In this document: positions 4,767 to 54,336 of the stretch, piece by piece
How positions within the stretch are numbered: the first letter of the stretch is position 1
Layout: every line of letters begins with the position of its first letter
Origin: Lactiplantibacillus plajomi
GTDB lineage: Bacteria; Bacillota; Bacilli; Lactobacillales; Lactobacillaceae
Direction: 5' to 3'
Assembly (NCBI RefSeq): GCF_005405405.1
Contig: NZ_BJDZ01000018.1
Coordinates: forward strand, 1 to 55,128
Length of the DNA: 55,128 nt
Notes under the pieces: model-generated
What the model saw: the letters and a program-made list of their open reading frames with translations, nothing else
Databases searched by the model: none
Told to the model about the DNA's origin: nothing
Made by a program: the position numbers and the translations under genes

Positions 4767-4785
4767 GTCTCCGAATATTGGTAGT

Positions 4786-4837
4786 CGAAACGTGCGCCAA
4801 AAGTCAGCTGGCTCCGCTTAACCAACTTTTGTCACAC
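4786..4837. repeat. GTGCGCC-type intergenic hairpin repeat, copy 1
   Basis: CGAAACGTGCGCCAAAAGT starts an imperfect hairpin: GTGCGCCAAAAGT (4792-4804) pairs with ACTTTTGTCACAC (4825-4837). Bases 4786-4821 recur almost exactly, inverted, at 54229-54265, and shorter relatives are at 8779-8820 and 44354-44389. All are intergenic, just past gene ends. Confidence 0.7.
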
Positions 4838-16957: not shown

Positions 16958-17058
16958 TGATGAGTTGCTAAATCGATTTCGTCAGTAAGGTACGCCAAAA
17001 AGAACCCAGTCCGGGTCGCTTTTTAGCCACTACTGCCCAAAAACAAAGCAATAATTTT

Positions 17059-17178
17059 CTTCTCCCATCCAGACTTTACTGTCGGTCCCAGACTTGCACT
17101 GGGTCAACCGCTCACGCGGGTCACGGACTCCAACTTACGTTGTTACCGTCGGTCGGGAATTACACCCTGCCCCGAAGA
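17059..17178 (-). promoter_or_regulatory. FMN riboswitch (RFN element)
   Basis: On the minus strand the sequence follows the RFN consensus in order: CTTCGGGGCAGGGTG, AATTCCCGACCG, a GCGGT-like pair region, AGTCCGTGACCC, a small variable stem CGCGTGAGCG, GACCCAGTGCAAGTCTGGG, ACCGACAGTAAAGTCTGG and ATGGGAGAAG. It lies about 150 bp upstream of ribD. FMN binding should favour the downstream terminator and shut the riboflavin operon. Confidence 0.97.
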
Positions 17179-17242
17179 AATCGTATTTAGTTTTCACGAA
17201 TTAGTGTAATCGGATTCAACCAAACTTGTCAAGTCACTTTTT

Positions 17243-19647: not shown

Positions 19648-19893
19648 ATTTCCTACCTCCATGAAGTGAAGTTCTTGGTTTTTTATACTGGGAAGTTTCC
19701 GAACCAGTCAGTGGCAAAACGCGCCACTAGTGCATAAATGCCCCCTAAGTATACCTGAAAATCTGCCGTTTGAAAATCCACCGTTCTTTCATAAAACTTA
19801 TAGTAGTATTTTTTTGACAATGGGACTATTCTAAGAATTGAGAGTGATAATCTGGCCGGTCGCCCGTGACGCCGGCTTGTGGGAGTGAACGTT

Positions 19894-28130: not shown

Positions 28131-28682
28131 AATGGCGCCTCCTCTAAATCATGAGTTCCATAAATCTTTTTATTCTCTTTTAATTAATGATAGCGTATTC
28201 ACAAAGCAATGTCTTTATGAAAATCAAGGAAAAAACTTTTCATTTTGATAAATTCTAGCTTTCGGCACGCCCAAAGTCTTCGTTGAACGACTTTACCTCA
28301 GATTTATCATTTTACTTACCCTTCCCCTGCAGGTTTAGGTTCGTCGTTAGCGGCTAAATTTCATTGATGAGAAGTAGTCAATAAACACGCTGTTAAATCT
28401 ATCTGTTAAGAACACAATGTTAGACGTACTGAGCAGGCGAAAAACAACCCTTAATTCAATTGATTTAGCTCAATTCCAAGTTAGCATTCCCTTGTCAACC
28501 CTCCGGTCAGCGGGAAGTAGTGGTTGAACTTTATTGATGAGAATCAGCGAGAAAACTCGCTGCCAACAATATTAAGTCATGTTTTGGACTTAGTATTACT
28601 AAACCGAAGAAAGGCAATACTTAATTAAACAAATCTTGCTCGATTCCAAGCTAGCGTTCGCTTACCAGCCCTCCGGTCAGCT

Positions 28683-28804
28683 GGAATCAGTCCGGAACGC
28701 GGTGGCCGCGGGGTTAAGCCCACAACCCAGGTCTTAACCACCGGGCTTTCACTAACCCGCCACAAACCGGCGACCAAGTGAAACTTCACCGCTGGGACTG
28801 TTCC
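28683..28804 (-). ncRNA. Structured intergenic element, copy A
   Basis: Outer arms GGAATCAGTCC and GGACTGTTCC pair, then GCGGTG (28699-28704) with CACCGC (28787-28792). Inside are two hairpins: GGTTAAG (28712-28718) with CTTAACC (28733-28739), and CGCC (28758-28761) with GGCG. The orientation is set by comparison with the copies at 29415 and 42730, which are on the plus strand. It may be an RNA or a structured DNA repeat; transcription is not shown. Confidence 0.55.
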
Positions 28805-29008
28805 CGCTTTCCCTACTGGCTTGAACTGGTCGTTGGCGGGCATTAGTGGTTAAATTTTATTGATGAGAATCAGTGGGAAAACTCGCTGCCAACAACATTA
28901 AGTCGTGTTTTAGACTTAGCGTTACTAAACCGAAGAAAGACAATACCTAGTTAAATAAGTCTTGATCGATTCCAAACTAGTATTCCCTTGCCAGCCCTCC
29001 GGTCAGCT

Positions 29009-29130
29009 GGAATCAGTCCGGAACGCGGTGGCCACGGGGTTAAGCCCAAAATTCAGGTCTTAACCACCGGGCTTTCACTAACTCGCCAAAGGACGGCGAC
29101 CAAGTGAAACTTCACCGCTGGGACTGTTCC
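29009..29130 (-). ncRNA. Structured intergenic element, copy B
   Basis: This is the copy in the second 326-bp unit. The outer arms and the GGTTAAG/CTTAACC hairpin are as in copy A, but the loop between them (ACCTGAATTTTGGG on the minus strand) and the second hairpin loop (GTCCTTT) differ, so variation is concentrated in loops. Confidence 0.55.
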
Positions 29131-29414
29131 CGCTTTCCCTCCAGGCTTGAATTAGTCGTTGGCGGGCACTAGTGCGCTAATTTGTATGAATGGATTGAGT
29201 TAGGCTGATAATTGATTATTGAATGGTGGTCACTATTTAGAGAAACAAACGTCTTAGAATCCGAATGATGGATAAGAGTACTATTTAGAGTTAGTTATCT
29301 ACTAACTTCAATTGAATATGGGGGAGCGTGTACTAAAAATCAACGAATCACGTGAACACCCACGTGGCTGGACTATTAAATCTGAAAGGTTGTTAGTTGA
29401 CGTGCGGTGAGCGA

Positions 29415-29566
29415 GGTCCCGGAGCCCTTCGAAACATGGCTGTGAAATTGTTGTTGGTCGCCGTACTTTGGCGGCTTACAACAAGGTCGACTTAGGAGAC
29501 AATTCGGGCTGTGAATTGGCTACCAAGCGTGCCCACAGCCCTGCTTTCGTGTAGGCGGAGCGGACC
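29415..29566 (+). ncRNA. Structured intergenic element, copy C (diverged)
   Basis: GGTCC and GGACC bracket the copy. GGCTGTG pairs with CACAGCC (in GCCCACAGCC), TCGCC with GGCGG around a GTACTTT loop, and CAATTC with GAATTG around GGGCTGT. Segments CTTAC, GAGACAA, TTGGCT and CCAAGCGTG line up with the copy at 42730, although the stems have different bases. Confidence 0.5.
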
Positions 29567-29639
29567 GGCATGTTAACTAGTGCCTAGTCTTTTTAATAGT
29601 GGCAACTTTTTCGAAGCTAAAGGTAGTCGTTTTCAAAGC

Positions 29640-29695
29640 TAATTGGCTACCAAACGTACGACAACCTTGCTTTCGTGACAGCGTAGACGCCGCCA
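29640..29695 (+). repeat. Partial copy of the structured element (3' part)
   Basis: TAATTGGCTACCAAACGT followed by CAACCTTGCTTTCGTG repeats, with changes, the segment AATTGGCTACCAAGCGTG ... CCTGCTTTCGTG of copy C about 125 bp upstream. Only this part is present; 29567-29639 holds no other recognisable feature. Confidence 0.5.
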
Positions 29696-29722
29696 ACTAG
29701 CCCGGATCGAGCCGGTTGATAA

Positions 29723-29769
29723 AAAGCGTCACCAGTCATCCGCGTACGTGGCGTGACTGGTGACGCTTT
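29723..29769. terminator. Terminator after the MFS gene
   Basis: AAAGCGTCACCAGTCA and TGACTGGTGACGCTTT form a perfect 16-bp stem eight bases past the stop of the minus-strand MFS gene. The T-run lies on the minus strand. Confidence 0.9.
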
Positions 29770-29777
29770 AAATCAAT

Positions 29778-30971
29778 TTAGGAAGCTTGCTGGGTCCGTT
29801 TGCGGACAACGTGGGGATAGTGCACAAAGTGGGCGTAGAAGCCTGCGACGAGGACGATAAAGCCTAAGACGCAGACGCCTTGCCAGCCGGCGAAATCCCA
29901 GAGGAGGTTGCCGAAAAAGGAGCCGAGCGCCCCGCCCATGAAGTAGCCAAACATGAAGACGGAATTGAAGCGACTGCTGGCGCGCGGGTCGATACTTTGG
30001 ACGCGGGCCTGGTTGGCAACTTGGCCGAACTGGGTCCCCAAATCCAAAATCACAATACCGACGATCAGACCGGCCAAGTGGGTGCCAAAGGTTAAGAAAA
30101 CGACGTAGGCCACCGTAGACAAGACCAGGCCGAGGCCGATAATCGTTCGCGGTTTAAACTGGTCGGCTAACCGACCAATCAGCGGGGCCGCTAACACCCC
30201 CGTCACCCCAAGTAATGCGAGTAAGCCGGCTTCCCGACTCCCCCAGTGGTACTGGTGTTGGAGGTAAAAGACCAGCGTTGCCCAGAAAATATTGGAGACG
30301 CCGAATAAAACGAAACCGTTAACGGCTGAAGCTCGTAACACCGGGTATTTTTTGACTAGCCGGGGCACGGTTTTGATCATCGCACGGTAAGTGGTCTGGT
30401 GATTCGTGACCGGGTCGCGCGGTAGCTTTTTGACCAGGACTAATCCAAGTAACGCAATCATGACGGCCGCAATCAGGTAAACCGCTTGCCACGGTAAGAC
30501 ACTGGCAAGCACTCCACTGACGGTTCGTGAAAGCAGGACCCCAACGAGCAGCCCACTCAAGACGTTACCGAGGACCCGTCCCCGCTGACCATCAGGGGCT
30601 AGAAACCCAGCGTACGGAATGATAACTTGCGGGGCGACCGACGTAATCCCGATAAGCAAGCTGGCCGCGGCGTAGACCCAAATGTTAGGGGCGACAAACG
30701 CCAGCATTGCCGAAATAATTGCAAGCGATAATAGTCGCAATATCAGGGTGCGGCGGTTCATAATATCCCCCATTGGGACAATTAATAATAAGCCAAAGGC
30801 ATAGCCCAATTGGGTCAACATGGCGACCGCCCCAACTACCGAATTGGCAAGGTTAAACTGTTGGGCAATGTCGGCTTCAATCGGTTGGATATAGTTAATA
30901 TTAGCAACGATAATCGCTGCGGAAACCGCCATTAACAGGACGGTACTCGAATTCAAAGATTTAGTTTTCAC
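29778..30971 (-). CDS. MFS transporter, DHA1-like (12 helices)
   Basis: The 397-aa protein has twelve helices and the MFS motif A region GLLLIVPMGDIMNRRTLILR after helix 2 (about residues 60-80), motif C-like GVLLSRTVSGVLA in helix 5 and a second motif-A-like GRLADQFKPRTII around residue 268. The layout is that of small drug or sugar efflux exporters of the YnfM/ArsJ-like group; the substrate is unknown. It starts at a GTG after AAAGGACC. A 45-codon reading frame lies 48 bp upstream on the same strand and could be a leader peptide. Confidence 0.9.
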   Translation of the reverse strand: MKTKSLNSSTVLLMAVSAAIIVANINYIQPIEADIAQQFNLANSVVGAVAMLTQLGYAFGLLLIVPMGDIMNRRTLILRLLSLAIISAMLAFVAPNIWVYAAASLLIGITSVAPQVIIPYAGFLAPDGQRGRVLGNVLSGLLVGVLLSRTVSGVLASVLPWQAVYLIAAVMIALLGLVLVKKLPRDPVTNHQTTYRAMIKTVPRLVKKYPVLRASAVNGFVLFGVSNIFWATLVFYLQHQYHWGSREAGLLALLGVTGVLAAPLIGRLADQFKPRTIIGLGLVLSTVAYVVFLTFGTHLAGLIVGIVILDLGTQFGQVANQARVQSIDPRASSRFNSVFMFGYFMGGALGSFFGNLLWDFAGWQGVCVLGFIVLVAGFYAHFVHYPHVVRKRTQQAS

Positions 30972-31018
30972 AATTAGGTCCTTTCTCTCACGTCTAAGTA
31001 ACTAAACACCTAGACGCT

Positions 31019-31156
31019 TTAAAAGGCCTGCTCAACGCGGATAATCAACCAGTGCTGGAGTTGGCAGTCGACCGGGACCAGCTGGCGACTCCCAGCCATG
31101 CAGTGGTCTAGATTCGCGCCCCGCCGCTTGATTGGGGTGGCGCCGTTCATTAACAT
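31019..31156 (-). CDS. Short 45-codon reading frame upstream of the MFS gene (doubtful)
   Basis: An ATG at the complement of 31154-31156 opens 45 codons ending in TAA at 31019. GAAAGGTG lies ten bases upstream, so translation is possible. The product is small, with Cys, His and several Arg, no signal peptide and no family I recognise. It would sit 48 bp before the MFS gene on the same strand, where a leader peptide could act. It may be chance; the rest of 30972-31338 holds only promoters. Confidence 0.35.
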   Translation of the reverse strand: MLMNGATPIKRRGANLDHCMAGSRQLVPVDCQLQHWLIIRVEQAF

Positions 31157-31263
31157 GCTTTTCAATCACCTTTCAGTTATTGTCAGTATTATTTTAGCAC
31201 AGCCTCCGGATTAATCAGCGCCATTTTTTAGTAACAGTATAAATGATATCTAAGTATAAATAT

Positions 31264-31292
31264 TTCAATCGGTATAAGCATCGTGCTATACT
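31264..31292 (+). promoter_or_regulatory. Promoter of the DHA2 exporter operon
   Basis: An extended -10 TGCTATACT (TATACT 31287-31292) is preceded 17 bp upstream by a weak -35 TTCAAT. A small inverted repeat ATCAA-N7-TTGAT at 31309-31325 follows it and could be an operator. Confidence 0.6.
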
Positions 31293-31338
31293 AATAGATT
31301 GTGTATTATCAAATCTAAATTGATGAAAGGATCATATT

Positions 31339-32820
31339 ATGCCAACTCATAATTCGGCGTTACCATTAGATGCTAACGGTCAGCCGTACCACCGGACTTG
31401 GTTAGTTTTAACCTTGCTGGTAGGGACCTTTAGCACTTTTATTACGCAAACTTTATTAACTACGGCATTCCCAACGTTGATGAACTATTTCCACATTTCC
31501 GCAACCGCTGTTCAGTGGTTAACGACCGGATTTATGTTGATTATGGGAATTATGATCCCCGTCAGCGCCTGGATGCTGACCCGGATCAATTCAAAATACT
31601 TATACCTCGCGGCGATGGTGATTTTTGGTGCCGGAACGATTCTGGCCTACTTTGCCGTCAACTTTCAGATGCTACTCGTTGCCCGCATGATTCAGGCGAT
31701 GGGGGTCGGGATTTCCGCACCGGTCTTTCAGACGATCATGTCGTCGGTTTACCCGCCTGAAAAACGGGGCTCGGCAATGGGAACCGCTGGGATCGTTATC
31801 GGGTTAGCCCCGGCGATTGGCCCAACGTTATCCGGTTGGATCATTGATAGTTATAACTGGCGGGCGCTGTTCCTGTTCATTATGCCGATCAACTGGCTCG
31901 TCATTATCGTGTCGTTCTTCACCCTTAGAAAGGTGTTACCAACGTCCAAGCAGCCGATTGACTGGTGGTCCGTGCTGATCTCCACGATTGGCTTTGGGAG
32001 CATGCTCTACGGCTTTTCATCGGTTGGTGAATCCGGCTGGGGCGACCCAGTTGTTATCGCAACGCTGATCATCGGGGCCATCTTCATCGGCCTCTTTGGT
32101 CACCGCCAGTTGCACATGGACAAACCCTTATTGGAACTACGGGTCTTTAAAATTCCCGCCTTTACCCTGTCCGCAATTTTGACCGCCCTCGCCTACATGG
32201 CCATGATGGGGGTCGAAATGATCTTACCAATGTACATTCAAAGCGTACTCGGCCATTCCGCGATGGATTCCGGGCTGATTCTCCTGCCCGGTGCCATCAT
32301 GATGGGAATCATGAGCCCGATTACCGGTCGGATCTTCGACCACATCGGTGCGCGCCGACTGGCCATGACCGGGATGCTGTTACTGACGGTCGGCACCGCG
32401 TTCTTCTTGTCGATCACCGCTTCGACCCCGATCATCTGGTTAATCGTCGTCTACGCAATCCGCATGTTTGGCTTAACGATGGTCACGATGCCAGTCACAA
32501 CGACCGGGATCAACGCCCTGCCATTTAGCTTGATTTCCCACGGGACCGCGGCCAATAACACCCTACGTCAAGTTGCCGCTTCGATGGGGACCGCCGTCTT
32601 GATCAGTGTCTACTCAAGCGTTTCCAAGTGGCACTTACCGAGCCAATCGCTGCTCGCCAGTGCGCCGTTGAAATACAAGGCCGCGACCATTAATGCGACC
32701 CTGACCGGCTACCACATGGCCTTCATCGTCTCGTTGATTTTCTGTGCGTTCGGGTTCGTTCTGACCTTCTTCTTAAAGGCTAACCACTCCACTGAAGTTA
32801 AGGAGGGCGATTTGAAATGA
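31339..32820 (+). CDS. DHA2-family MFS multidrug exporter (LmrB/EmrB-like)
   Basis: The 493-aa protein has 14 predicted helices and a typical EmrB/QacA layout. Helix 1 begins LVLTLLVGTFSTFITQTLLTTAFPTLMNYF (pieces: LVLTLLVGTFSTFI, TTAFPTLMNYFHIS), then AVQWLTTGFMLIMGIMIPVSAW, the motif C region GIVIGLAPAIGPTLSGWII near residue 150-170, and the loop VYPPEKRGSAMG near residue 138. It is intact, in contrast to the DHA2 gene at 2.7-4.1 kb. It ends in ATGA, overlapping by four bases with a DUF4811 gene, so the two are co-expressed. Confidence 0.95.
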   Translation: MPTHNSALPLDANGQPYHRTWLVLTLLVGTFSTFITQTLLTTAFPTLMNYFHISATAVQWLTTGFMLIMGIMIPVSAWMLTRINSKYLYLAAMVIFGAGTILAYFAVNFQMLLVARMIQAMGVGISAPVFQTIMSSVYPPEKRGSAMGTAGIVIGLAPAIGPTLSGWIIDSYNWRALFLFIMPINWLVIIVSFFTLRKVLPTSKQPIDWWSVLISTIGFGSMLYGFSSVGESGWGDPVVIATLIIGAIFIGLFGHRQLHMDKPLLELRVFKIPAFTLSAILTALAYMAMMGVEMILPMYIQSVLGHSAMDSGLILLPGAIMMGIMSPITGRIFDHIGARRLAMTGMLLLTVGTAFFLSITASTPIIWLIVVYAIRMFGLTMVTMPVTTTGINALPFSLISHGTAANNTLRQVAASMGTAVLISVYSSVSKWHLPSQSLLASAPLKYKAATINATLTGYHMAFIVSLIFCAFGFVLTFFLKANHSTEVKEGDLK

Positions 32821-33314
32821 TTCTGATTCTACTGGTCATCGCTACCCTCGTCTTTTCCGGCGCCATGATTTTTGGCCGCAACGGGTTGGTGCGCAGCTTA
32901 ACCGTCATCGTTAGTTTTCTGGTCATTGTCGGTGGGCTGATTGGGCTCGTCGGTAATGATAATTACCATTGGGGGATGCACCAAGTCACGACGACCCGCA
33001 TTCAAGACCTGACGCCGGTCCGTTCTAAGCAGGCGGCGCTGCTGATTAAGCCGTTGGGGCACGGGTCGGAACGCGTCGTCACGTACCGCGTCAACGGCAC
33101 GACCAAGTCTAGCCGGACGCCGAGCGATACGGTCACCACGACTAAGCTCACCCGCGGCCGCAACGCTCAGGTGCAGCTGGCAACCACCCGTTGGCAGTAT
33201 GATAGTGCCTTGATGAAAAGACTCTTCGCACTGGGAACCGGTGCTACCGAAGTCGTTAACCGTCAATTTATCTTTACGATACCAACGACTTGGCAAACCG
33301 TCACCCTTAAATAG
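32817..33314 (+). CDS. DUF4811 membrane protein, partner of the exporter
   Basis: The 165-aa protein has two N-terminal helices (about residues 1-19 and 25-43) and a hydrophilic C-terminal domain of about 120 residues with many Thr, Arg and Val (e.g. KQAALLIKPLGHGSERVVTYRV). This is the DUF4811 pattern, found in lactobacilli directly after LmrB-like exporters. The coupled start (ATGA overlap) with the exporter fits. Its role, possibly as an accessory to export, is inferred from gene order only. Confidence 0.85.
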   Translation: MILILLVIATLVFSGAMIFGRNGLVRSLTVIVSFLVIVGGLIGLVGNDNYHWGMHQVTTTRIQDLTPVRSKQAALLIKPLGHGSERVVTYRVNGTTKSSRTPSDTVTTTKLTRGRNAQVQLATTRWQYDSALMKRLFALGTGATEVVNRQFIFTIPTTWQTVTLK

Positions 33315-33315
33315 C

Positions 33316-33350
33316 AAAAAAAATCTGGATGCTGAGCATCCAGATTTTTT
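33316..33350. terminator. Bidirectional terminator
   Basis: ATCTGGATGC, TGA and GCATCCAGAT (33323-33345) form a perfect hairpin flanked by A and T runs on both sides, between the exporter operon and the converging YeiH gene. Confidence 0.93.
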
Positions 33351-33351
33351 A

Positions 33352-34359
33352 TTATCTTAATAATAACGTGATTAAAATCAAGGCACAAACTACTTGAATG
33401 CTGCCAACGCCCAGCCCGTATAGTGCGAGTCGTTTACCCGCTTTCAAGAAGTTCACCAAGTTCAAGCGTAACCCGATTGCGGCTAACGCGATGATTTCAA
33501 ACCAGCTACTGATGGTATGCGCCGTGGCGCCCACGATGGCGGGTAACGTCACCAAACTATTTAGGGCGCATAAAATCAAGAAACCGGCAACGTACCACGG
33601 TAGCCAGTGGCCGTTCCCGTTACCACTGACCTGGGCGTCTTCCGCCAATTCAGTTTCAACGGTCCGGTTATGCATCCGACCAAAAATCAGCACCACGATC
33701 ACCAGCATCATGATCCGCATGATTTTAAAAATCGTTGCGAACTGAACGGTCGTCTGGTTGACCATGCTGGCCGCGGCCACCACCTGTCCAACCGATTGTA
33801 AGGTCCCACCGATCAGGGCCCCCTTCAAAATGACGCTGCCACCAAAAATGGCGCCACCGAGTAGTGGCAAGGTGAGCATCAAGACGGTCCCCATCAAGTT
33901 GACTAGTGTGATCACCGTTCCCTTATCATCTTCATCAGCATCAATTACCGGGGCAATCGATGCAATCGCGGACGACCCACAAACGGCGTTCCCGCCGGCC
34001 ATCAGCATCCGCATGTTCTGACTGAAGCCCAAGCGGTTACCCAACCACAGTGCGCCCGTAATCGTGACCGTCATCTGAATTAAGATAAAGCCGATGCCCC
34101 AACCACCGATTTGGCCAATGGTCTGAACCGTCATCGTGGCACCCAGCAGCATCACTGAATATTCCAATAATTTACTTTCCGCAAACTTGGTTCCGCGGCC
34201 TAACTGGGGTTGCTTAAAGACCGTGTTTCCCCCTAAAATACCTAACAAAATGGCAATTGTGGCCGCCCCGAGCGCCGGCACAAACTTGGCGAGTACCTGG
34301 CTGATCACCGCAATAATGACGCTCATCACCAATCCCGGCATAATTCCTTTAATTTTCAC
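33352..34359 (-). CDS. YeiH family putative sulfate exporter (UPF0324)
   Basis: The 335-aa protein has about ten helices and the UPF0324/YeiH signature: [32 protein letters not shown] near residue 63-78, and the central [24 protein letters not shown] near residue 122-145. YeiH proteins are annotated as putative sulfate exporters, and in E. coli yeiH is next to a LysR gene (yeiE), as here. Transport has not been shown for lactic members. It is divergent from the LysR gene by 111 bp, the likely control region. Confidence 0.9.
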
Positions 34360-34470
34360 ATGATCCTCTCCCGTCTCTTCAATAGCCCTAAGTATACGGA
34401 ATTAGTTTACATTTGAGAAATAAATTATTATGATAGTTATTATTAATAATCCTAATAGTGAGGCCCGCCA

Positions 34471-35304
34471 ATGTTCAAACAACTCCAAACGTTTTGCGTC
34501 GTCTACGAAACCCGCAACTTTTCGCACGCCGCAACCCAACTATTTATTTCACAACCCACCGTCTCGACCCAGATCAAGCAACTCGAAAGTGAACTGCACA
34601 CCACCCTCTTCACCCGTAACGGACGCCAAGAAATTAGTCCGACCGCTAGCGGTAAGTTACTCTACCAACACGCGCAGATCCTCCTGGAAAGCTGGGCGAC
34701 GACTAAAACCGAGATTCAGGCGACCCACCACCTAGTGAAATTACCTTGCCGGATTGCGGCGTCACACACCACCGCTAGCCTGGTATTACCGGGGCTGTTA
34801 ACCGCGTTAGCGCCCCTCGGTAACCACTTCGACTTTCGCATTAAGCTGGCCAATTCGGCTGAGATTCTCACCGCAATGTCGCAACATAAGCTCGACTTCG
34901 GGTTAGTGGAAAAGCCGCTCGTGACCGACCAACTAGACCGCTGGGGGTTCGGCCACGACCAACTCGTACACGCCGGGGATTTCAATAGTCCGCTTTGGCT
35001 ACTGCGCGAAGCCGAGTCCGGCGTGCGCCACTACACCGACGCCTTCTTAAAGGCGCAAAATATTCAACCGCAACAAACCATGACGATCCATAGTAACCAG
35101 GTGATCGCCGACCTGCTCGCCCGCGGCATTGGCCAATCGGTACTTTCAAAGGATGTCCTCAAGCCGACCGTACCGTTCGAAACGTTGGGAGACCAGTACC
35201 GCCGGCAATTTTTCCTGCTAACGCCAAGTGAAGCGAACCCGTTATTAGCCCCGGTTCAACAACTGGTCACCCCCTATTTACGCCGGTGGACGGTGGTGGA
35301 TTAG
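34471..35304 (+). CDS. LysR-family transcriptional regulator (CysB/YeiE-like)
   Basis: The 277-aa protein has the N-terminal LysR helix-turn-helix around residues 16-38 (FSHAATQLFISQPTVSTQIK) and a periplasmic-binding-type effector domain from about residue 90, with LDFGLVEKP near residue 145 and SNQVIADLLARGIGQSVLSK near residue 212. At 277 aa it is slightly short for the family (usually about 290-310). It is divergent from the yeiH-like gene and most likely regulates it, as YeiE does in enterobacteria. The short intergenic region is A/T-rich, with ATAGTTATTATTAATAATCC as a possible site; no TN11A box was fixed. Confidence 0.9.
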   Translation: MFKQLQTFCVVYETRNFSHAATQLFISQPTVSTQIKQLESELHTTLFTRNGRQEISPTASGKLLYQHAQILLESWATTKTEIQATHHLVKLPCRIAASHTTASLVLPGLLTALAPLGNHFDFRIKLANSAEILTAMSQHKLDFGLVEKPLVTDQLDRWGFGHDQLVHAGDFNSPLWLLREAESGVRHYTDAFLKAQNIQPQQTMTIHSNQVIADLLARGIGQSVLSKDVLKPTVPFETLGDQYRRQFFLLTPSEANPLLAPVQQLVTPYLRRWTVVD

Positions 35305-35314
35305 TCCAAAAGTC

Positions 35315-35353
35315 AAAAAATGCCTAGTCAGCAAACCTGACTAGGTATTTTTT
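35315..35353. terminator. Bidirectional terminator
   Basis: AAAAAATGCCTAGTCA and TGACTAGGTATTTTTT form a stem with one mismatch and a 7-nt loop between lysR and the glycosyltransferase operon. Confidence 0.9.
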
Positions 35354-35367
35354 AGCTAAACAATCTC

Positions 35368-36876
35368 CTATTTCACAACCTGCGCCCATTGTTGCCAGAC
35401 CTGATCCGAACTGTACTGTTGACTCGTCCGGTAAGCCGTATTGCTCAACTTTTGCTGGCGCTTCGGGTTTTCAATGACCTTGGTCATTGCTGTCACCAGT
35501 TGATTAACCGCGCCGGATTTAACCAAGTAACCGTTACGGCCATCCTTAACAACGTCGCGCGGACCGTAATTGATGTCATAAGCAATGACTGGTACCCCGT
35601 GACTGAGCGCCTCGACCAATGAGAGCGGCTGGGCGTCGCTATCACCAGTGTAGACGTAGGCACCGGCCTGGTCATAAGCCGCACTTAAATCCGGTTGATA
35701 ACCGGCAAAGGTCACCACGTCGGTGAGGTTAGCGGTCTTGACCTGTTCTTGCAGCTTGGCCTTGGTCGCCCCGTAACCATAGATCTTCAGGGTCGCATCC
35801 TTAACCTTCCGCCGGACTTGGGTAAACGCCGTGATCAACTGGTCGACGTGGCGTTCATTATCCAACCGACCGGCGTAAATGATTTCGTGCGCGTGGCGGT
35901 CCGTCATGGCAATCGGCTGGCGGTCGGCTTGGGCCTTAGAGACAACCGCGGCCGAAATCGTCATAATCGGCCGTTTCGGCTGACCACCCATCCAGGCCGT
36001 TAAGTCCTGCTTTTGTTGCTCAGTACTGGTAATGACCCCGTCAAGGGAGGTTAAGTACTCGTGTAACCCGTACGTGTAGGCGTTGTTCAGGTTCGAATAG
36101 ACCTGGTCGTTGGGATCGACCGCGTGGGGCGTCGGTAACCATAAGTACTTGCGGGCCTTCGTCTGCATATTAATAATCGGCCATTGCGATGCTAACGGCC
36201 GGTCACCGATAAAGACGTTGTCTTCATCAGTGGCACGGTTTAGTTCGTCTAAGAAGAACCGGTAAAACTCATTTTCACCATTAAAGTAGTAATCCTGCCC
36301 CTGATAATCAATCAACTTACATAGCGACACGTAGTTACCACCGTTGGCGTTGTGGACGAAGTAGGCTTCGATGACCCGCTGCCCATCCGGCCGGTAAAAA
36401 ATATCGGTGACCGGTTCACCGTTCGGCGCGACGAAGCGGTCGCGGGCTTTGAACCCGCGGGCATCGTAATCGGTACGTTGAACCAGGTTGTTAAAGCGGT
36501 CGAAGATTTCCACGTAGTAGACGTGACCGACCGTGCCGGGAACAAAGTGTACCTTGGCTACTAGGCGGTCCCCCGCCAACACTTGGCTAACGTTGGGGTT
36601 CGGCTTAACGTCGTAGGCGTCCGGCCAATTCAAATCGGTCATTTTAACCACTTTCGGCGTCAACGCGGTCGTCCCGCGGAAGAAGTCGAACAGGTTGACT
36701 AATTGGTCATCGGCCAACTCAAAGCGGCGCATATTTTGATGAAGCAAGCCGTCGAACTGACGGGTGACCAACTTTGCCGGGACCCCGTGTTCTTTAAAGA
36801 GTTGTAGTCGCTTAAATTCCGCGTGTTCCACCCCGGAATTTAGGGCCATGATATATTGATTAACGAAATAATACAT
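35368..36876 (-). CDS. Glycosyltransferase, GT4 type, TagE/Gtf-like (second of a pair)
   Basis: The 502-aa protein starts MYYFVNQYIMALNSGVEHAE, the same opening pattern as its neighbour and as the TagE/Gtf group of lactobacilli. The N-terminal ~300 residues are family-specific; the C-terminal half is the GT-B domain: HEIIYAGRLDNERHVDQLI near residue 329, LKIYGYGATKAKL, TFAGYQPDLSAAY and SLVEALSHGVPVIAYDINYGPRDVV near residue 418-442, which carries the nucleotide-sugar E-x7-E region. Relatives in L. plantarum (TagE5/TagE6, renamed GtfA/GtfB) O-glycosylate secreted proteins, and others glucosylate teichoic acid. Its start overlaps the upstream gene's stop by one base (TAATG). Confidence 0.88.
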   Translation of the reverse strand: MYYFVNQYIMALNSGVEHAEFKRLQLFKEHGVPAKLVTRQFDGLLHQNMRRFELADDQLVNLFDFFRGTTALTPKVVKMTDLNWPDAYDVKPNPNVSQVLAGDRLVAKVHFVPGTVGHVYYVEIFDRFNNLVQRTDYDARGFKARDRFVAPNGEPVTDIFYRPDGQRVIEAYFVHNANGGNYVSLCKLIDYQGQDYYFNGENEFYRFFLDELNRATDEDNVFIGDRPLASQWPIINMQTKARKYLWLPTPHAVDPNDQVYSNLNNAYTYGLHEYLTSLDGVITSTEQQKQDLTAWMGGQPKRPIMTISAAVVSKAQADRQPIAMTDRHAHEIIYAGRLDNERHVDQLITAFTQVRRKVKDATLKIYGYGATKAKLQEQVKTANLTDVVTFAGYQPDLSAAYDQAGAYVYTGDSDAQPLSLVEALSHGVPVIAYDINYGPRDVVKDGRNGYLVKSGAVNQLVTAMTKVIENPKRQQKLSNTAYRTSQQYSSDQVWQQWAQVVK

Positions 36877-38417
36877 TAGGCTTCCTCACTTTCCGTTTGG
36901 TAAAACTTTTGTGCGGCGCTCATCAGTGGTTGCCAACGCGTCCACACCGCGTCGGTACTATAACGCTTAGCATCGACGTAGGCCTGTTCACTAAACGCCT
37001 GCAGTTGCTTAGGATCTTGCAAGAGCTTGATCATGGCGTCGGCCAAAGCCTGCTCGTCATTAACCGGGACTAACAGGCCGTCCTGTCCGTCACGAATAAT
37101 GTCCCGTGGGCCGTACTTCACGTCGTAGGCAATCTGCGGTACCCCGTGAGCCTGCCCTTCCAGTAGTGCCAACGCAAAGCCCTCCGCCCGCGACGTTAAC
37201 ATCGCTAGTTGGGCGTGGTTGTAAACGCTGGTCAGGTCGGTGGTATAGTCGTTAAAGGTGACGGCATCCGTGAGCTGCAAGTCCTTAACTAACTGCCGGA
37301 GCTTCTTACCGGTATCCCCGTTAGCGTAACCCCAGAAATTCAGGGTAGCATGGGGGACGCTGGCCTTTACGTGTTTGAACGCGCGAATGACTTGATCCTG
37401 TTGCTTTTCTTCGGCTAGGCGGGCCACAAAAATGATGTTGCCGGGCGTCCGCGTCCGCCACGCCGGGTGCTTGGCGTTGATGACATCGTCGGGAACGATG
37501 CCCACTGGAATGGTATAAGTTGCCGGCGTCTGACCGTAACGTTCCACAAAGTCAGCCGTTTGTTGGGCCGTCGACGCGATCACGCCGTTCCATTGCTGCA
37601 AGTTATTCAACGCGTAGGCGTAGTTAAAGTTAAGCTCGGCCGTCTTCGGCTTGGCCGGGTCGTTAACGTGGTTACTATGCAGGTGCATGACCTTAAACGC
37701 CTTGGTCCGCATGTGTAACGCCGCGTAGGCCAACTCGTAGGTCCGGTCAATCACGAAGACCGCACCGGGCGTTCGCCGGTTCAGTTCATCAAGGAAGAAG
37801 CTGGTCATCGCCGTTTCACCGCTAAACGACCAGTCCTGCCCCTGATACTGAATAAACCGGTACAGTGAGTTCTGCACCTTTCCTTGGCGATCCGGCATGT
37901 GGAAAGTTTGGTAGACCACGTTGCCGCTTGGATCAAAGACCTGCTCGCTAGTCACCTTGCCGTCAAAGGTATAGAACTGTTCCAGCCCTTTGAAGCCGCG
38001 GGTGTCGTACCAGTCGGTCTTCACCAACTTACCGTTTTGATCATAATACTGAACATTATTCACTTGGTGTGCGGGCCGCTTGAACGTGTTGACGCGCATC
38101 ACCAACTGGTCGTGCTGGTAAACCACGTAGTTAGCGCCCTCACTTTCGACGCGCAAGTTCGCCCCTAAATGCAGGTCATCAATGGTGAATTGGACCGGCT
38201 TAAAGGTTTCGGACTGCTGAATAAAGTCAAACAGGTTAACTTGATTACTTTCGGCAATCCCGGCGTCGGCTAACGTTTGATGTAACGATAGCGAAAAAAA
38301 GCGGGTTGCCATCTTAGCCGGCACTTGGTGCTGATTAAACAGTGCGAGCCGCTTCATTTCAGCGTGCTCAATTCCCGATTTTTTGGGATTAATACTCGTA
38401 TTCACAAAATAATACAT
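36876..38417 (-). CDS. Glycosyltransferase, GT4 type, TagE/Gtf-like (first of a pair)
   Basis: The 513-aa protein has the same architecture as the gene product downstream: an N-terminus with MYYFVNTSINPKKSGIEHAE and MKRLALFNQHQVPAKMATRF, a middle region including FSGETAMTSFFLDELNRRTP, and a C-terminal GT-B half with NIIFVARLAEEKQQDQVIRAF near residue 330 and LALLEGQAHGVPQIAYDVKYGPRDI around residue 430-455. The two genes form a translationally coupled pair (TAATG), as expected for enzymes that act together. The gene is divergent from a Ser/Thr-rich LysM protein, which makes protein glycosylation an attractive guess. Poly(glycerol phosphate) glucosylation is the alternative. Confidence 0.88.
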   Translation of the reverse strand: MYYFVNTSINPKKSGIEHAEMKRLALFNQHQVPAKMATRFFSLSLHQTLADAGIAESNQVNLFDFIQQSETFKPVQFTIDDLHLGANLRVESEGANYVVYQHDQLVMRVNTFKRPAHQVNNVQYYDQNGKLVKTDWYDTRGFKGLEQFYTFDGKVTSEQVFDPSGNVVYQTFHMPDRQGKVQNSLYRFIQYQGQDWSFSGETAMTSFFLDELNRRTPGAVFVIDRTYELAYAALHMRTKAFKVMHLHSNHVNDPAKPKTAELNFNYAYALNNLQQWNGVIASTAQQTADFVERYGQTPATYTIPVGIVPDDVINAKHPAWRTRTPGNIIFVARLAEEKQQDQVIRAFKHVKASVPHATLNFWGYANGDTGKKLRQLVKDLQLTDAVTFNDYTTDLTSVYNHAQLAMLTSRAEGFALALLEGQAHGVPQIAYDVKYGPRDIIRDGQDGLLVPVNDEQALADAMIKLLQDPKQLQAFSEQAYVDAKRYSTDAVWTRWQPLMSAAQKFYQTESEEA

Positions 38418-38558
38418 TTATTCTCGCTCCCTCATTGATTCATGTGCCTGACGCCTCTGATTATAGCAAATTTTAGTAGCGCTTTTTCTTTTCATGGGGT
38501 GATCTTAACCATTGCGTTGAGATTTTTAACTGAACTTATGGCTTTTAACCGTTCTTTC

Positions 38559-38585
38559 TAATTAGTGACCCCTAGTCATTAATTA
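38559..38585. promoter_or_regulatory. Palindrome in the glycosyltransferase/LysM intergenic region
   Basis: TAATTAGTGAC and GTCATTAATTA are an 11-bp inverted repeat with one mismatch and a 5-nt loop, about 140 bp from both starts of the divergent genes. It is an operator-like site without a known binder. Nothing else stands out in 38418-38723. Confidence 0.5.
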
Positions 38586-38723
38586 CGCAGGACTTGATTA
38601 ATTCCACGCGTCTTTTTCCAAAAAAATCGGGTTGGCACCAAAAAATAATGATACCGCTTAACTATCCGCCTTCAACATGGTAGAATCAGGGGGTGAATTA
38701 TTAACAATTTTATGGGAGTGAAC

Positions 38724-39803
38724 ATGCGAATGAAAGTTAGAAACGTCCTATTATCGTCACTAGCCGCAACCGGCGCGATTGGCCTCGGCACAACCGCTGC
38801 CAAGGCGGACACGGTAACAGTCAAAGCCGGTGACACGGTCAGCGAACTTGCCGTGACCCATAAGTCGAGTATCAAGCAAATTCAAAAACTGAACCACTTA
38901 AAAAACGTCAACTTAATTTACGTTGGTGACAAGCTGAAGGTCAACACCCGCACCACAACCGTTAAGGTAACCCGTAACCACACTGACGTTCCAATGGGGG
39001 CCGTTAACACTGCTAAAACAACGTCAGCGACTAACCAATCCCCGGTCAGTCAGACTAGTCAAGCTCAAATTAGTCAAGCAGTCACGACCAGCAGTTCCCG
39101 GGCCGAAAGTCGTTCAACCGACTCAACGGCAGTTTCGACAGCGACCGCCCCGGCTTCGCAGCAAGCTAGCCGGGTCCGCGTCGCTAAATCCTTACCGGCA
39201 GCCGCGCAAAGCTCCTCCGCAGCATCAACGGTTGCGAAATCAGCCACTAGCCAAGTCTTACGGCGCGCCACCAGTGCAAGTTCCCAACAGACTAGCCAAG
39301 CCACGAGCGCCACTAGTCAAGCAGCGATTCGCACCACTACGAAAACTGCAACCACGACAACCACTAGTGCTGCGAACAGTTCGGCCACAACCACGACCGT
39401 TGCTACTAAACCAGTCAGCACAGCCGCTAAGAAAACGACTAGCAGTACGACTGCAAGTCAAGCTGCAACGAGTAACGCCAGTACCAGCGTAAGTTCAAGC
39501 ACTAGTGCTAGCACCGCACAGTCAACCACCAGCACCACGAGTTCGTCAACTGCTTCGACAAGCAGTAGCACCAGTACGACTTCCGAAACCAGCGCGCGTG
39601 ATTGGATTTCCGAACGCGAATCCGGTGGCTCCTACACAGCGGTTAACGGTAACTACTATGGCAAGTACCAGTTAACGAAGTCGCTGCTGAACGGCGACTA
39701 CTCACCCGCTAATCAAGAAGCCGTGGCGAACACCTACGTTATGAACCGTTATGGATCGTGGGCCAACGCCAAGACTTTCTGGGAAGCTAACGGCTGGTAT
39801 TAA
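38724..39803 (+). CDS. Secreted LysM / Ser-Thr-rich / Apf-type lysozyme-like protein
   Basis: Start ATG 38724 follows GGGAGTGAAC; 359 aa. A signal peptide occupies about residues 1-28 (cleavage after AKA). A LysM domain (about residues 29-72: TVTVKAGDTVSELAVTHKSS) anchors the protein to the wall. Residues about 85-290 are a low-complexity Ser/Thr/Ala-rich linker, a possible glycosylation region. The last ~70 residues resemble the aggregation-promoting-factor end: WISERESGGSYTAVNGNYYG, KYQLTKSLLNGDYSPANQEA, YGSWANAKTFWEANGWY. Apf proteins have a lysozyme-like fold and take part in wall metabolism and aggregation. The adjacent divergent glycosyltransferase pair may glycosylate the linker (inference). 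Confidence 0.92.
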   Translation: MRMKVRNVLLSSLAATGAIGLGTTAAKADTVTVKAGDTVSELAVTHKSSIKQIQKLNHLKNVNLIYVGDKLKVNTRTTTVKVTRNHTDVPMGAVNTAKTTSATNQSPVSQTSQAQISQAVTTSSSRAESRSTDSTAVSTATAPASQQASRVRVAKSLPAAAQSSSAASTVAKSATSQVLRRATSASSQQTSQATSATSQAAIRTTTKTATTTTTSAANSSATTTTVATKPVSTAAKKTTSSTTASQAATSNASTSVSSSTSASTAQSTTSTTSSSTASTSSSTSTTSETSARDWISERESGGSYTAVNGNYYGKYQLTKSLLNGDYSPANQEAVANTYVMNRYGSWANAKTFWEANGWY

Positions 39804-39823
39804 CAGCAAGCAACCAAAGCTAA

Positions 39824-39862
39824 ACGTGGATCCGGCGCAGCCCGTTGATCCACGTCTTTTTA
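39824..39862 (+). terminator. Terminator after the LysM gene
   Basis: ACGTGGATC and GATCCACGT form a 9-bp stem around a 14-nt loop, followed by CTTTTTAAT. Confidence 0.88.
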
Positions 39863-39881
39863 ATCAGGGGGGACTAATCTA

Positions 39882-40394
39882 ATGAAGCTAACGTTAACTA
39901 AAACGACGATTCAACACCACCACTACTGGCTGGCTAGCAGTCCGGTCGGCCTCGCCTTTATCGGGCGTGTGGACGGGGCCGAAAACGAGTGGCAGCAGTT
40001 TTACCCAACCGCCACGGCAAGTATCGACCAGACCAGCAACCAGACCGCCATTCGGGCGTTACGGGCCTACCTTTCCGGCCAGCCGTTTGACCCCGCCGTT
40101 GTACTCGACCTCACCCCTGGGACCCCGTTTCAACAACGAGTCTGGCAAGCGCTACGGCAAATTCCTTACGGTCAGACCCGTAGCTATTCCGAGCTCGCAA
40201 CTAGTATCGCGCGTCCCCGGGCCGTCCGGGCAGTCGCTAGTGCGGTCGCGCATAATCCCCTCCTAATGGCCGTGCCCTGTCACCGAATCATCCGCAAGGA
40301 CGGTCAATTGGGCAACTACCGTGGCGGCGTGGCCATGAAACGGGCGTTACTGACCTTGGAGGACGCTCACTGTCACGCTTGCGGTCGCCCCTGA
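39882..40394 (+). CDS. ogt: Methylated-DNA--[protein]-cysteine S-methyltransferase
   Basis: The 170-aa DNA-repair protein removes O6-alkyl groups from guanine by transferring them to its own cysteine. The acceptor is Cys133 in the motif PCHRIIRKDGQLGNYRGG, and upstream are the Arg-finger helix QIPYGQTRSYSELA and RPRAVRAVASAVAHNPLL. The N-terminal ~80 residues are the less conserved domain of Ogt proteins. The start ATG follows GGGGGGAC; the gene is followed by an ABC operon after a 43-bp gap. Confidence 0.96.
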   Translation: MKLTLTKTTIQHHHYWLASSPVGLAFIGRVDGAENEWQQFYPTATASIDQTSNQTAIRALRAYLSGQPFDPAVVLDLTPGTPFQQRVWQALRQIPYGQTRSYSELATSIARPRAVRAVASAVAHNPLLMAVPCHRIIRKDGQLGNYRGGVAMKRALLTLEDAHCHACGRP

Positions 40395-40437
40395 GTTATG
40401 GGATGATAAACGTATTCTAAGTATGGGAGGCGCCACT

Positions 40438-41337
40438 ATGTTATCAGTTGTACATATCAGTAAAACCTTTGGTCAAGTCAAAGCGTTGGACGACGTGTCG
40501 TTTGACGTGCACGACGGCGAGATCTTAGGGCTGATTGGTCAAAACGGGGCCGGTAAATCGACCACCTTTCACAGCATTCTGAACTTTCTTTCGTTCGACG
40601 GTCAGATTACCTGGAACGGGCAGCCGTTCACCGAGGCCGACTACGATCAGATCGGCTACTTACCCGAAGAACGCAGCTTAATGCCCAAGTTAACGATCAC
40701 CCAACAAATCGTTTACCTCGCTCGCTTAAAGAACCAACCCGCCAAGGTCACCAAGCCGAAAATTGCGGGCTGGATGGACCGCTTTGCGGTTAAGGGGCAA
40801 CCGACCGACCAAATCAAAAAGTTATCCAAGGGGAACCAACAAAAGGTTCAGCTCATTTGCACACTGATCCACGACCCCCAATTAATTATTTTGGACGAAC
40901 CGTTCAGTGGCTTAGATCCAGTCAACGCCGACCTGTTGAAGCAAGCCATCTTAGCGGCAAAGCAACGCGGCGCCACCATCATCTTTTCCAGCCACGATAT
41001 GACCAACGTCGAAGAACTCTGCGATTCGTTGGTCATGTTAAAAAACGGTCGGGTCGTGTTGAAGGGGACGATTGACAGTGTCCGCGAGCAGTTCGGTCGC
41101 ACCCAGCTTTACCTAACTACCGACTGGTCCAAGGAACGACTAGCGGCCCTCGACGGCGTTAAGCACGTTTACCACCTTGGCACCCATCGCTACCGGCTCC
41201 AACTAAACGACGAAGCTGCCGGCAAGACCATTTTTGACGCGGTTTCCGGTGGTCACTACATTACCGAATTCAGCCAACAACCACCGACCCTGGACGCCAT
41301 TTTCCGGACTGAAGCGGGAGGAACCGACCATGAATAA
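40438..41337 (+). CDS. ABC transporter ATP-binding protein (NatA/YhaQ-like)
   Basis: The ATG at 40438 follows GGGAGGCGCCACT; the frame from 40423 has no site. The 299-aa ATPase has Walker A GQNGAGKST at residues 34-42, the signature LSKGNQQKVQLI near residue 128 and Walker B IILDEPFSGLDP near residue 150, then the switch His in IFSSHDMTN. The C-terminal ~80 residues extend past the core as in NatA/YhaQ-type exporters. The partner permease begins eight bases before this gene's stop. The pair resembles Na+/drug exporters of the NatAB class; the substrate is inferred only. Confidence 0.93.
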   Translation: MLSVVHISKTFGQVKALDDVSFDVHDGEILGLIGQNGAGKSTTFHSILNFLSFDGQITWNGQPFTEADYDQIGYLPEERSLMPKLTITQQIVYLARLKNQPAKVTKPKIAGWMDRFAVKGQPTDQIKKLSKGNQQKVQLICTLIHDPQLIILDEPFSGLDPVNADLLKQAILAAKQRGATIIFSSHDMTNVEELCDSLVMLKNGRVVLKGTIDSVREQFGRTQLYLTTDWSKERLAALDGVKHVYHLGTHRYRLQLNDEAAGKTIFDAVSGGHYITEFSQQPPTLDAIFRTEAGGTDHE

Positions 41338-42547
41338 AACCTGGATTGTGACCCTTGAAACCTACCTCCGCCAAGTCAAGTCGTGGAGCTTTCTGACCTT
41401 GGTGCTGATGCCGTTCCTGTTCGTCGGCCTGTCATTCGGGATTTCCTACGTGGCTACCCCCAGCTCGAGTAAAGATAAGACGGCGGTCGTTAGTAGCGAC
41501 CCGCAACTCCGTAACACCTTCCTCAAGCAAAGCGACCTCACCACGACCAAGCGGTACGCCGCCAAAGCACAGGCCCAAAAGGCAACCGACCGCGGTGACA
41601 TCAATGGCTACCTGACCTTAGGGGTTAAAAAGAACCGTTTAACGGCCACCTTTACCGGTCCCACCGAACTGAACAGCGGCGACCAAGCCAAGATCCAGCG
41701 CTTCTTAACGGCGACCCAGTCAGCACTCAACGTCCAGCAGGCCAAGTTAAGCCCGCAACAGACCCAGGCGTTGGCCGTCCAACCGCAATTTAAGCAGCGC
41801 TTGCAACACAAAACCGCTAGTGACAAGCTGGCCAAACAAATTTCCTTTTACATCGTGGTTTTCTTCGTTTACCTGATTTTAACGACCTACTCGGCGATTA
41901 CCGCCCAGGAAATTGCCGCCGAAAAGGGCACCAAGATTATGGAAGTGATCTTCTCCAGTACGACGCCACGGAAATACTTTAACGGCAAAATCTACGGCGT
42001 TTTACTCGTGATTCTCACGCAACTGCTGGTATACCTGGTTGGTGGCATTGCGGTGGTTGCTTTCGCTCAACGTAGCCGCTTAACGGCCGACTTCTGGCAA
42101 CAAAACCAGACGGTGATCAGCCAGATTCTGCACAACTTGCTGTCGGTTAACATGTTATTCGCGTTGTTAGCCGTGTTGCTCTACACGGTCATTTCCGCGT
42201 TTTGCGGTGCCCTAGTCACCCGGGTGGAAGACGCCGGCAAGGCCTCGCAACCAGCGATTTACCTGAACTTGATTACCTTCGCGGTCGCCCTAGCCTTTCA
42301 GAGCAACCCGACCAACGTGCTGGTCAAAGTGCTGTCCTACGTTCCGTTTTTCTCATCCTACCTGATGCCACTACGGTTGATCAATAGCACCGCTACCGGC
42401 GTGGAAGCCGGCATTTCGCTGCTGATTCTACTGGTCACAATCGTCGCCATCATGCTCTACCTCGGCCGTATCTATGGTGGTCTGATGCTGCAAACCGACG
42501 AACTGGGTTTCTGGAAGAACCTGAAACGTGGGTTGAGTCTGAAGTAA
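41330..42547 (+). CDS. ABC-2 type permease (NatB/YhaP-like)
   Basis: The gene starts at ATG 41330, with GCGGGAGGAACCGACC just ahead; the 405-aa protein overlaps the ATPase by eight bases. It has an N-terminal helix (about residues 18-38), an extracellular domain (about 40-175), and then five helices, including FYIVVFFVYLILTTYSAITA near residue 180-200, MEVIFSSTTPRKYFNGKIYG near 215-233 with the NatB-type cytoplasmic loop, and FSSYLMPLRLIN near 342. This ABC-2 layout exports drugs, peptides or Na+; the neighbour ATPase supplies energy. Confidence 0.92.
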   Translation: MNKTWIVTLETYLRQVKSWSFLTLVLMPFLFVGLSFGISYVATPSSSKDKTAVVSSDPQLRNTFLKQSDLTTTKRYAAKAQAQKATDRGDINGYLTLGVKKNRLTATFTGPTELNSGDQAKIQRFLTATQSALNVQQAKLSPQQTQALAVQPQFKQRLQHKTASDKLAKQISFYIVVFFVYLILTTYSAITAQEIAAEKGTKIMEVIFSSTTPRKYFNGKIYGVLLVILTQLLVYLVGGIAVVAFAQRSRLTADFWQQNQTVISQILHNLLSVNMLFALLAVLLYTVISAFCGALVTRVEDAGKASQPAIYLNLITFAVALAFQSNPTNVLVKVLSYVPFFSSYLMPLRLINSTATGVEAGISLLILLVTIVAIMLYLGRIYGGLMLQTDELGFWKNLKRGLSLK

Positions 42548-42654
42548 CCTTTTTAACACAAAACGGCGATGCCCGTACACGCAGTATTTTCTGCTTTACT
42601 ATTTGAATGATGATTTGCCAACAAACAGTAGTCCAACTCACATTGTTGATTACT

Positions 42655-42701
42655 AAAAAGCGTCCCCCAATGATTGAAATAATCATTGGGGGACGCTTTT
42701 T
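42655..42701. terminator. Strong bidirectional terminator
   Basis: AAAAAGCGTCCCCCAATGAT and its complement form a perfect stem of about 21 bp around GAAAT. It lies about 110 bp past the ABC operon and would also end transcripts coming from the right. Confidence 0.93.
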
Positions 42702-42729
42702 AATTGAGGTTCATTTAAGCCGTGAGGGC

Positions 42730-42863
42730 GGTCCTAAAGTGGCTCAGTGGTGTGGTTTGCGTTAGTCGGGGTTGTTTCCCGACTTACCCAAAGACCGAGC
42801 TTTAAGACAAGTGGGTTGCTTGGCTTAAAGTCGTGTCCACCACGTTCCAGCCGCTTTAGGACC
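42730..42863 (+). ncRNA. Structured intergenic element, copy D
   Basis: The best-paired copy: outer arms GGTCCTAAAG and CTTTAGGACC, then GTGGTGTGG with CCACCAC-like bases, GTCGGG (42765-42770) with CCCGAC (42778-42783), and CTTTAAGACAAG with CTTGGCTTAAAG. The segments CTTACCCAAAGACCG and GGGTTGCTTGGCTTAAAG align with copies A-C near 28.7-29.5 kb. It lies in the 380-bp gap between the ABC permease and the CMD gene; the rest of that gap, apart from the terminator, shows nothing. Confidence 0.55.
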
Positions 42864-42929
42864 AACCGGCAAGGCGAAAAGTTGCCACAATTCAGGCTCG
42901 ACTAATCGTAGGACCGATAATAGACGAAA

Positions 42930-44253: not shown

Positions 44254-44353
44254 GTTTTAAGGGGAGCCACATTGCAACGATAGCTTGTTTGGAGACGAAA
44301 GGCGCCGTGACAAGGGTCCCGGCGTCTTTCACGTGCCCGTTGAATAATATAAA

Positions 44354-44389
44354 GCGTGCGCCCAAAGTCGGTTGACTTTGGGCGCACGC
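44354..44389. repeat. GTGCGCC-type intergenic hairpin repeat, copy 3 (perfect)
   Basis: GCGTGCGCCCAAAGTC, GGTT and GACTTTGGGCGCACGC form a perfect 16-bp stem with a 4-nt loop, 16 bp before the end of the converging M20 peptidase gene. It may work as a terminator but lacks a long T run. Confidence 0.75.
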
Positions 44390-44405
44390 TTCGTGTATTT
44401 GACGG

Positions 44406-54147: not shown

Positions 54148-54265
54148 TTGGGCCAAAAGTCGGTTAGTTGGTAAGCGTTAACGGCGTGAGGCAAATAATC
54201 CTGGGCTTGGATTGTTGGACTTACGCCGTTAAGCGGAGCCAGCTGGCTTTGGGCGCACGTTTCGA
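54148..54265. repeat. GTGCGCC-type intergenic hairpin repeat, copy 4 (long form)
   Basis: The end TTAAGCGGAGCCAGCTGGCT plus TTGGGCGCACGTTTCG matches the copy at 4786, inverted. Inside are further arms: TTAACGGCGT with ACGCCGTTAA, and AATAATCC with GGATTGTT. It therefore holds a long nested hairpin of about 115 bp; shorter copies may be deletion products. The gap 54062-54336 holds only this and the next gene's signals. Confidence 0.7.
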
Positions 54266-54336
54266 CTCTTATCCTACGGAGATACAAGGGAGGCCGTGGC
54301 TTTTACCACAGTCTCATTAACAAAGGCGGTGATGGC

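Follow-up and report, generated by a model that had tools for sequence, protein, structure and literature searches.

Bacterial miniature inverted-repeat transposable elements (MITEs) are described, in the parts of the source available, as gene-less sequences with terminal inverted repeats and short target duplications, which occur in many intergenic copies and whose transcripts are said to fold (PMC10969869). The mobile/repeat sequence candidates, such as MRSC-65-2, comprise a covarying structured motif present in many copies, in a setting which, according to the accessible portion of that paper, suggests a transposable element (PMC11109978). Repetitive extragenic palindromic (REP) sequences are likewise numerous, the REPINs being inverted pairs of them (PMC3733652, PMC3116915). 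A structured repeat named bcr1 (the name occurs in PMC2267715), likened here by its description, is scattered between the genes of a single bacterial group, that of Bacillus cereus. The element considered here was detected in a window of 55,128 nt (the whole stretch of DNA that was analysed), the forward strand of contig NZ_BJDZ01000018.1 of Lactiplantibacillus plajomi (assembly GCF_005405405.1). Four intergenic segments of this window, A to D, are modules of one family, three-way junctions of about 140 nt.

Four modules with one junction fold

The first-pass annotation of the window had located the four segments and had given them a single folding plan of outer helix, inner helix and two hairpins, and folds computed with ViennaRNA agree with it on both counts. 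The extents needed correction, in that A and B sit in two 300-nt direct repeats, D is part of a longer repeat, and the copies of C reach beyond the model match (Table 1). A covariance-model scan, the check proposed along with that annotation, recovered B, A, D and C. The model, R1, was built from a MAFFT alignment of 40 copies, namely five A-type copies of the L. plajomi genome, copy A among them, and 35 modules of related genomes; because the C- and D-type copies of L. plajomi were left out, the matches to C and D are independent of the model and support a single family. The next R1 matches in the window lie far below, one on the opposite strand with 13.7 bits (E 0.06) and a chance match with 9.0 bits. 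Module C is oriented away from A and B: the three form a divergent composite, one side of which is tandemly duplicated, and D is a solo module. All four copies proposed initially are real, yet they are an undercount, as R1 gives 36 matches at E 2.3e-11 or better, plus two weak ones, in the L. plajomi genome. By BLAST this genome holds 18 A-type copies and 14 long C-type copies, with fragments besides, and the D-type core in four full and six partial copies; of the first 12 regions retrieved for the A- and C-type parts, 10 contain both.

The apparent compensatory base changes noted early on are borne out by RNAalifold, which predicts 44 pairs in the 40-copy MAFFT alignment, not fitted to structure; at 31 of these, one double change or more preserves the pairing. 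Across 63 R1-aligned copies, mostly from other genomes and from several genera, 97.6% of the cells are paired as compared to a shuffled mean of 70.5%, and the covariation score amounts to 0.644 as compared to 0.166, none of 500 shuffles reaching either value, in an alignment which, being fitted to the model, leans towards the structure. Displaced (slid) structures pair in just 32–46% of the cells. The modules retain a three-way junction with fixed mismatches: 57 of 62 copies have a T.T mismatch in hairpin 1, and all 60 copies with letters at the place in question show an A.G apposition. Two blocks that had been taken for conserved unpaired sequence find other places in this fold, GGCTTAA lying mostly in the stem of hairpin 2 and CTTAC containing the conserved T.T mismatch within hairpin 1. 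The initial description as an RNA family or structured repeat, belonging to no known family, holds in view of the strong covariation, the conserved junction and the Rfam results, since no family matches the modules when the whole window is searched at the gathering threshold, and the relaxed threshold returns for both regions just chance matches to other hairpins. Assignment to a known RNA family was accordingly rejected, the weak Rfam matches being mostly microRNA models over terminators.

Outward-facing pairs, inverted ends and insertion sites

When 76 loci were scanned with R1 and neighbours within 1200 nt were paired, 52 of the 60 neighbouring module pairs turned out to be divergent, seven tandem and one a spurious overlap (49/57 divergent after dropping three repeats in overlapping loci). 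Genus g16 is represented among the divergent pairs, the order survey described below adds others in g4, g12 and g15, and in some pairs the modules are separated by just 46–68 nt. At locus L254 the full order can be followed, from a 7-bp repeat through inverted repeat, module, spacer, second module and inverted repeat to the 7-bp repeat. The composites with both ends in the related genomes G008 and G017 (n = 18, from 20 stretches) measure 248–408 bp; the end motif CTAGYACCAARCGT, one mismatch allowed, occurs 172 times in G008 and 174 times in G017, as compared to two and four occurrences, respectively, of the reversed control pattern. The composites of L. plantarum EGD-AQ4 are longer, about 1 kb (17 pairs aligned), and a different, outward-reading end motif is present at 11/17 left and 10/15 right ends examined, seven composites having it at both ends (0/640 shuffles). 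Terminal inverted repeats are thus found in G008, in G017 and in part of the EGD-AQ4 copies.

Target duplications of 7–9 bp, partly read by eye, flank 13 of the 18 composites of G008 and G017: exact 8-bp repeats are present in three and exact 7-bp repeats in three, and seven further composites show, by eye, a flanking match of 7–9 bp with one or two differences. L247 and L264 represent one site in two species. With a fixed length of 8 bp, five of the 18 match at seven bases or more and none of the mis-paired flanks does so; the 7-bp test, with at most one difference, gives 5/18 (null 1.6%) and the 9-bp test 2/18 (null 0.3%). Three flank searches were made for empty sites. A clean one was obtained by comparing L277 with L276, where the 8-bp sequence AATCAAGT occurs once in G017 and flanks a 393-bp element on both sides in G008. 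At a second site the element is missing from G017, with 14 diverged bases in its stead. The remaining comparisons gave no clean empty site: when L280 was set against nine others, either the flanks were rearranged or no more than a short stretch was conserved, L110/L116 has an internal remnant, L113/L149 has the element present in one and absent in the other with flanks changed as well, and L109/L144 and L131/L141 are too diverged. Because divergent pairs in the relatives have inverted ends, target duplications and an empty site, the repeat is almost certainly a MITE-like transposable element.

Two side observations concern the composites. In G019 (L151:1858-2787) the composite found at L137:5741-6677 in EGD-AQ4 lies inverted in place while the flanks are collinear, an arrangement that recombination of its inverted ends might have produced. 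A third, more distant module type (L149:5542-5628, L110:3807-3894, L116:1185-1272 and L183:1713-1800; 31–43 bits, model positions 24–109) can take the place of either partner in a divergent pair; an additional hairpin seems to be part of it.

Strand polarity and a likely role as RNA

On the outward strand, the inner helix and the hairpins of the MAFFT alignment hold 45 G.U and 10 A.C cells, and the model-aligned sets give G.U/A.C counts of 90/21 and 139/37. The excess of G.U recurs in both module classes of two genome groups (31/3, 15/2, 13/7 and 34/10, with 75 of 96 rows classed). Along these lines, in 120 of 139 modules the outward strand has the more stable fold of the two strands (mean 6.6 kcal/mol), the corresponding figure for control segments being 54 of 109. 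Related copies are not independent, so that these counts, and those of the fixed mismatches, overstate the number of events. The tolerance of G.U on the outward strand and its greater stability therefore suggest selection on a single strand, probably as RNA. It can be asked whether the structure matters as DNA only, with hairpins or cruciforms near the ends recognised by the transposase and with the paired changes resulting from that recognition or from template-switch repair of imperfect palindromes. Such an origin would suit a mobile DNA with inverted ends, a missing promoter signal and the composite that a related genome carries in inverted form between the ends; we consider it unlikely, however, given the G.U excess and the more stable outward strand. 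The two modules of an element occupy opposite DNA strands, and for this reason a cruciform, or a fixed single-stranded stage of one strand, fails as an explanation; simple palindrome repair is disfavoured because the T.T and A.G mismatches are fixed.

In our opinion, the element is quite probably mobilised at the DNA level by a trans-acting transposase, with its modules working as folded RNA inside host transcripts. The complete element, as read in two relatives, would comprise a target duplication of 7–9 bp, a terminal inverted repeat, a leftward module, a spacer, a rightward module, the inverted terminal repeat and again the target duplication. The first half of the proposal is based on the target duplications and the empty site, and the transposase would recognise the inverted repeats and move the DNA. 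For the second half, covariation and polarity in the aligned sequences make it likely, with some reserve, that the modules function folded as RNA. Given the outward orientation of the modules, any transcript that runs into the element, whichever side it comes from, would contain one module in the orientation that folds. The element may thereby equip the 3' portion of host transcripts with a folded structure to which a protein probably binds, and this structure may render insertions harmless or useful. One could go further and picture a DNA transposable element each end of which encodes an outward structured RNA that aids its own spread, the folded RNA, continuing into flanking host sequence, recruiting or steering the trans-acting enzyme. 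We regard this extension as very unlikely; if true, a gene-less element would be mobilised through RNA.

Several observations weigh against the combination of transposase-driven movement with folded RNA in host transcripts. The outer helices have a weaker polarity (24 G.U and 15 A.C cells), and five of the 18 two-ended composites lack a convincing target duplication. An earlier test for target duplications, with loosely called ends in 41 clusters, gave a mean of 2.56 matches out of 9 versus 2.42, with 2/41 clusters at seven matches or more; we think that this near-absent signal is due to miscalled ends. The composites of the L. plajomi genome, inspected by eye, have no clear terminal repeats or target duplications, no clear outer ends could be made out for the A/B–C composite, and solo modules such as D exist besides the pairs. 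No transposase or autonomous parent was found in the loci examined, in nine further stretches or in plasmids. A parent insertion sequence with ends like the element's own (ACGCTTGGTGCTAGTT-like) did not appear in the nine stretches with such ends, whose frames were assessed from their opening residues, with whole genomes unscreened; plasmid searches with 47- and 414-base queries gave no parent either, and the composites examined contain no long conserved open frame for a transposase of their own. Finally, promoter-like sites show no excess over shuffles near A to C and are absent near D. This last result bears as well on stand-alone regulatory small RNAs, transcribed outward from spacer promoters and merely carried by the mobile element. 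Outward polarity of both modules and a conserved, covarying junction are what one would expect of them, but the spacer in the window is devoid of a promoter-like site and the closest pairs leave little room for two promoters, which makes this explanation quite unlikely.

Distribution, surroundings and relation to described elements

A search with the conserved pattern returned 44 stretches in named genomes, every one Lactiplantibacillus. R1 matches are present in 19 of the 21 Lactiplantibacillus genomes surveyed (none in G001 and G002), with a minimum of 19 modules where present and 36 to 150 or more in most, 150 being the maximum number of candidates scored per genome. At the family level R1 matches were found in at least 86 of the 301 Lactobacillaceae genomes, spread over 14 of 40 genera, and in the order sample in at least 9 of 295 genomes, all nine of them Lactobacillaceae, with no match outside this family in the sample; these figures are lower bounds, since both surveys filtered more strictly and scored only a small number of candidates in each genome. 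Genus g48 adds little support, because its single copies (L220 and L214), whose surroundings are common to both, look horizontally acquired. Plasmid copies, unannotated, occur in 26 records (L. plantarum, L. paraplantarum and L. pentosus of Lactiplantibacillus, and Ligilactobacillus salivarius). The five plasmid regions inspected showed no clean insertion, the window composite matched one plasmid, weakly, and phage sequences had no match to the L. plantarum composite. Plasmid pSF118-44 of Lig. salivarius UCC118 (L237, 6001-6309) contains an unannotated half of an L. plantarum-type composite at 89% identity, and six of seven Lig. salivarius records carry such a half-composite at two places each.

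Of the 66 clusters whose gene setting was classed from open frames of at least 110 codons, 28 lie in tandem, 26 in convergent and 12 in divergent surroundings (another 31, at locus edges, were left unclassed and four loci dropped, two of them inside larger loci). That the modules are intergenic, and convergent settings more frequent than divergent ones, would be in keeping with cis-regulatory leaders or terminators of adjacent genes. On the other hand, the neighbouring genes are unrelated by eye, all orientations are represented, and no constant downstream gene class or orientation of the kind that marks a riboswitch or leader accompanies the modules. Terminator-like sites (hairpin plus T run) are absent within modules A, B, C and D; their number is at shuffle level near A to C, and there are none near D. 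A cis-regulatory role is therefore next to negligible in our estimate. Among 791 predicted frames a cis partner gene was sought and rejected, the recurring groups being, by eye, common families or frames on the element itself. A protein remnant was rejected as well: a 57-codon frame lies beside the module in the composite spacer (L220:9671-9841, minus strand, and L214:1239-1409, the first codons shared with the L. plantarum copies), and because the frame is interrupted by stops or lost in most copies, the spacer is treated as non-coding; a small gene lost from it is possible.

Table 1. Position and strand of the modules, their repeat units and further features of the window
Feature	Position	Strand	Remarks
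Module A	28672..28812	-	A-type three-way-junction module; R1 136.3 bits, E 1.6e-36; copy was in the model
Module B	28998..29138	-	Second A-type module, tandem copy of A; R1 139.7 bits, E 1.8e-37
Module C	29424-29559 (model match); 29405..29575 (extent matched by its copies)	+	R1 58.5 bits, E 1.4e-14
Module D	42727-42870 (model match)	+	R1 123.1 bits, E 8.4e-33; solo module
D repeat, ~233 nt	42681..42913	+	D module plus conserved flanks
Tandem units of 300 nt carrying A and B	28510-28809 and 28836-29135	-	90% alike; direct repeat, 326-nt spacing
More degenerate further unit beside the A/B tandem units	28420-28521	-	Repeat comparison
Spacer from which A/B and C face outwards	29139..29404	.	No promoter-like site in scan
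Fragment of second C unit	29641..29677	+	E 7.5e-4
T-box leader	2489-2688	-	Rfam
FMN riboswitch	17053-17183	-	Rfam
PreQ1 riboswitch	19669-19713	-	Rfam

Copies of D end near hairpins resembling terminators, and directly before the D repeat of the window a long AT-flanked hairpin (42651-42705) has the look of a terminator for the gene upstream. Also dispersed between genes of the window is another repeat, whose arms are of the GTGCGCC(A/C)AAAGTC type; it occurs in two inverted copies (4747-4822 and 54228-54303, 78%) and as a near-perfect hairpin (44352-44393), and a similar stretch lies beyond a D copy at the end of contig C32.

The element abounds in genomes that have wide use in food and probiotics. 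The end motifs counted in G017 would correspond to up to about 87 elements of about 0.4 kb, near 1% of the genome. The element breaks assemblies, with D copies sitting at contig ends, and could mislead screens for new RNAs. A covarying, directional structure in a gene-less DNA transposon offers the opportunity to test whether such elements persist by virtue of the RNA they add to host transcripts.

Among the papers listed by the literature search, mostly openly readable ones, no description of the element appeared; the element is apparently unrecorded and, its parent aside, of the MITE kind. The features listed above for bacterial MITEs, as far as the available part of the source goes, are common to both, folded transcripts being a probable one for the present element (PMC10969869). 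Inverted ends, target duplication and empty site, the lack of an own transposase gene, small size and high copy number were all found here. The present element differs from MITEs by its two opposed three-way-junction modules, strong covariation and strand polarity, kept across genera. Paired divergent junction modules are not known for bcr1. The likeness to MRSC-65-2-type candidates consists in a covarying structure in many copies per genome; according to the accessible portion of their description, these candidates often lie near transposase genes, whereas no partner gene accompanies the present element in the loci examined, and it differs from them further in that ends, target duplications and an empty site are documented (PMC11109978). 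REP sequences, in the parts of the sources available, are palindromes of 20–40 bp, in contrast to the present modules, which are junctions of about 140 nt within elements flanked by target duplications of 7–9 bp (PMC3733652, PMC3116915).

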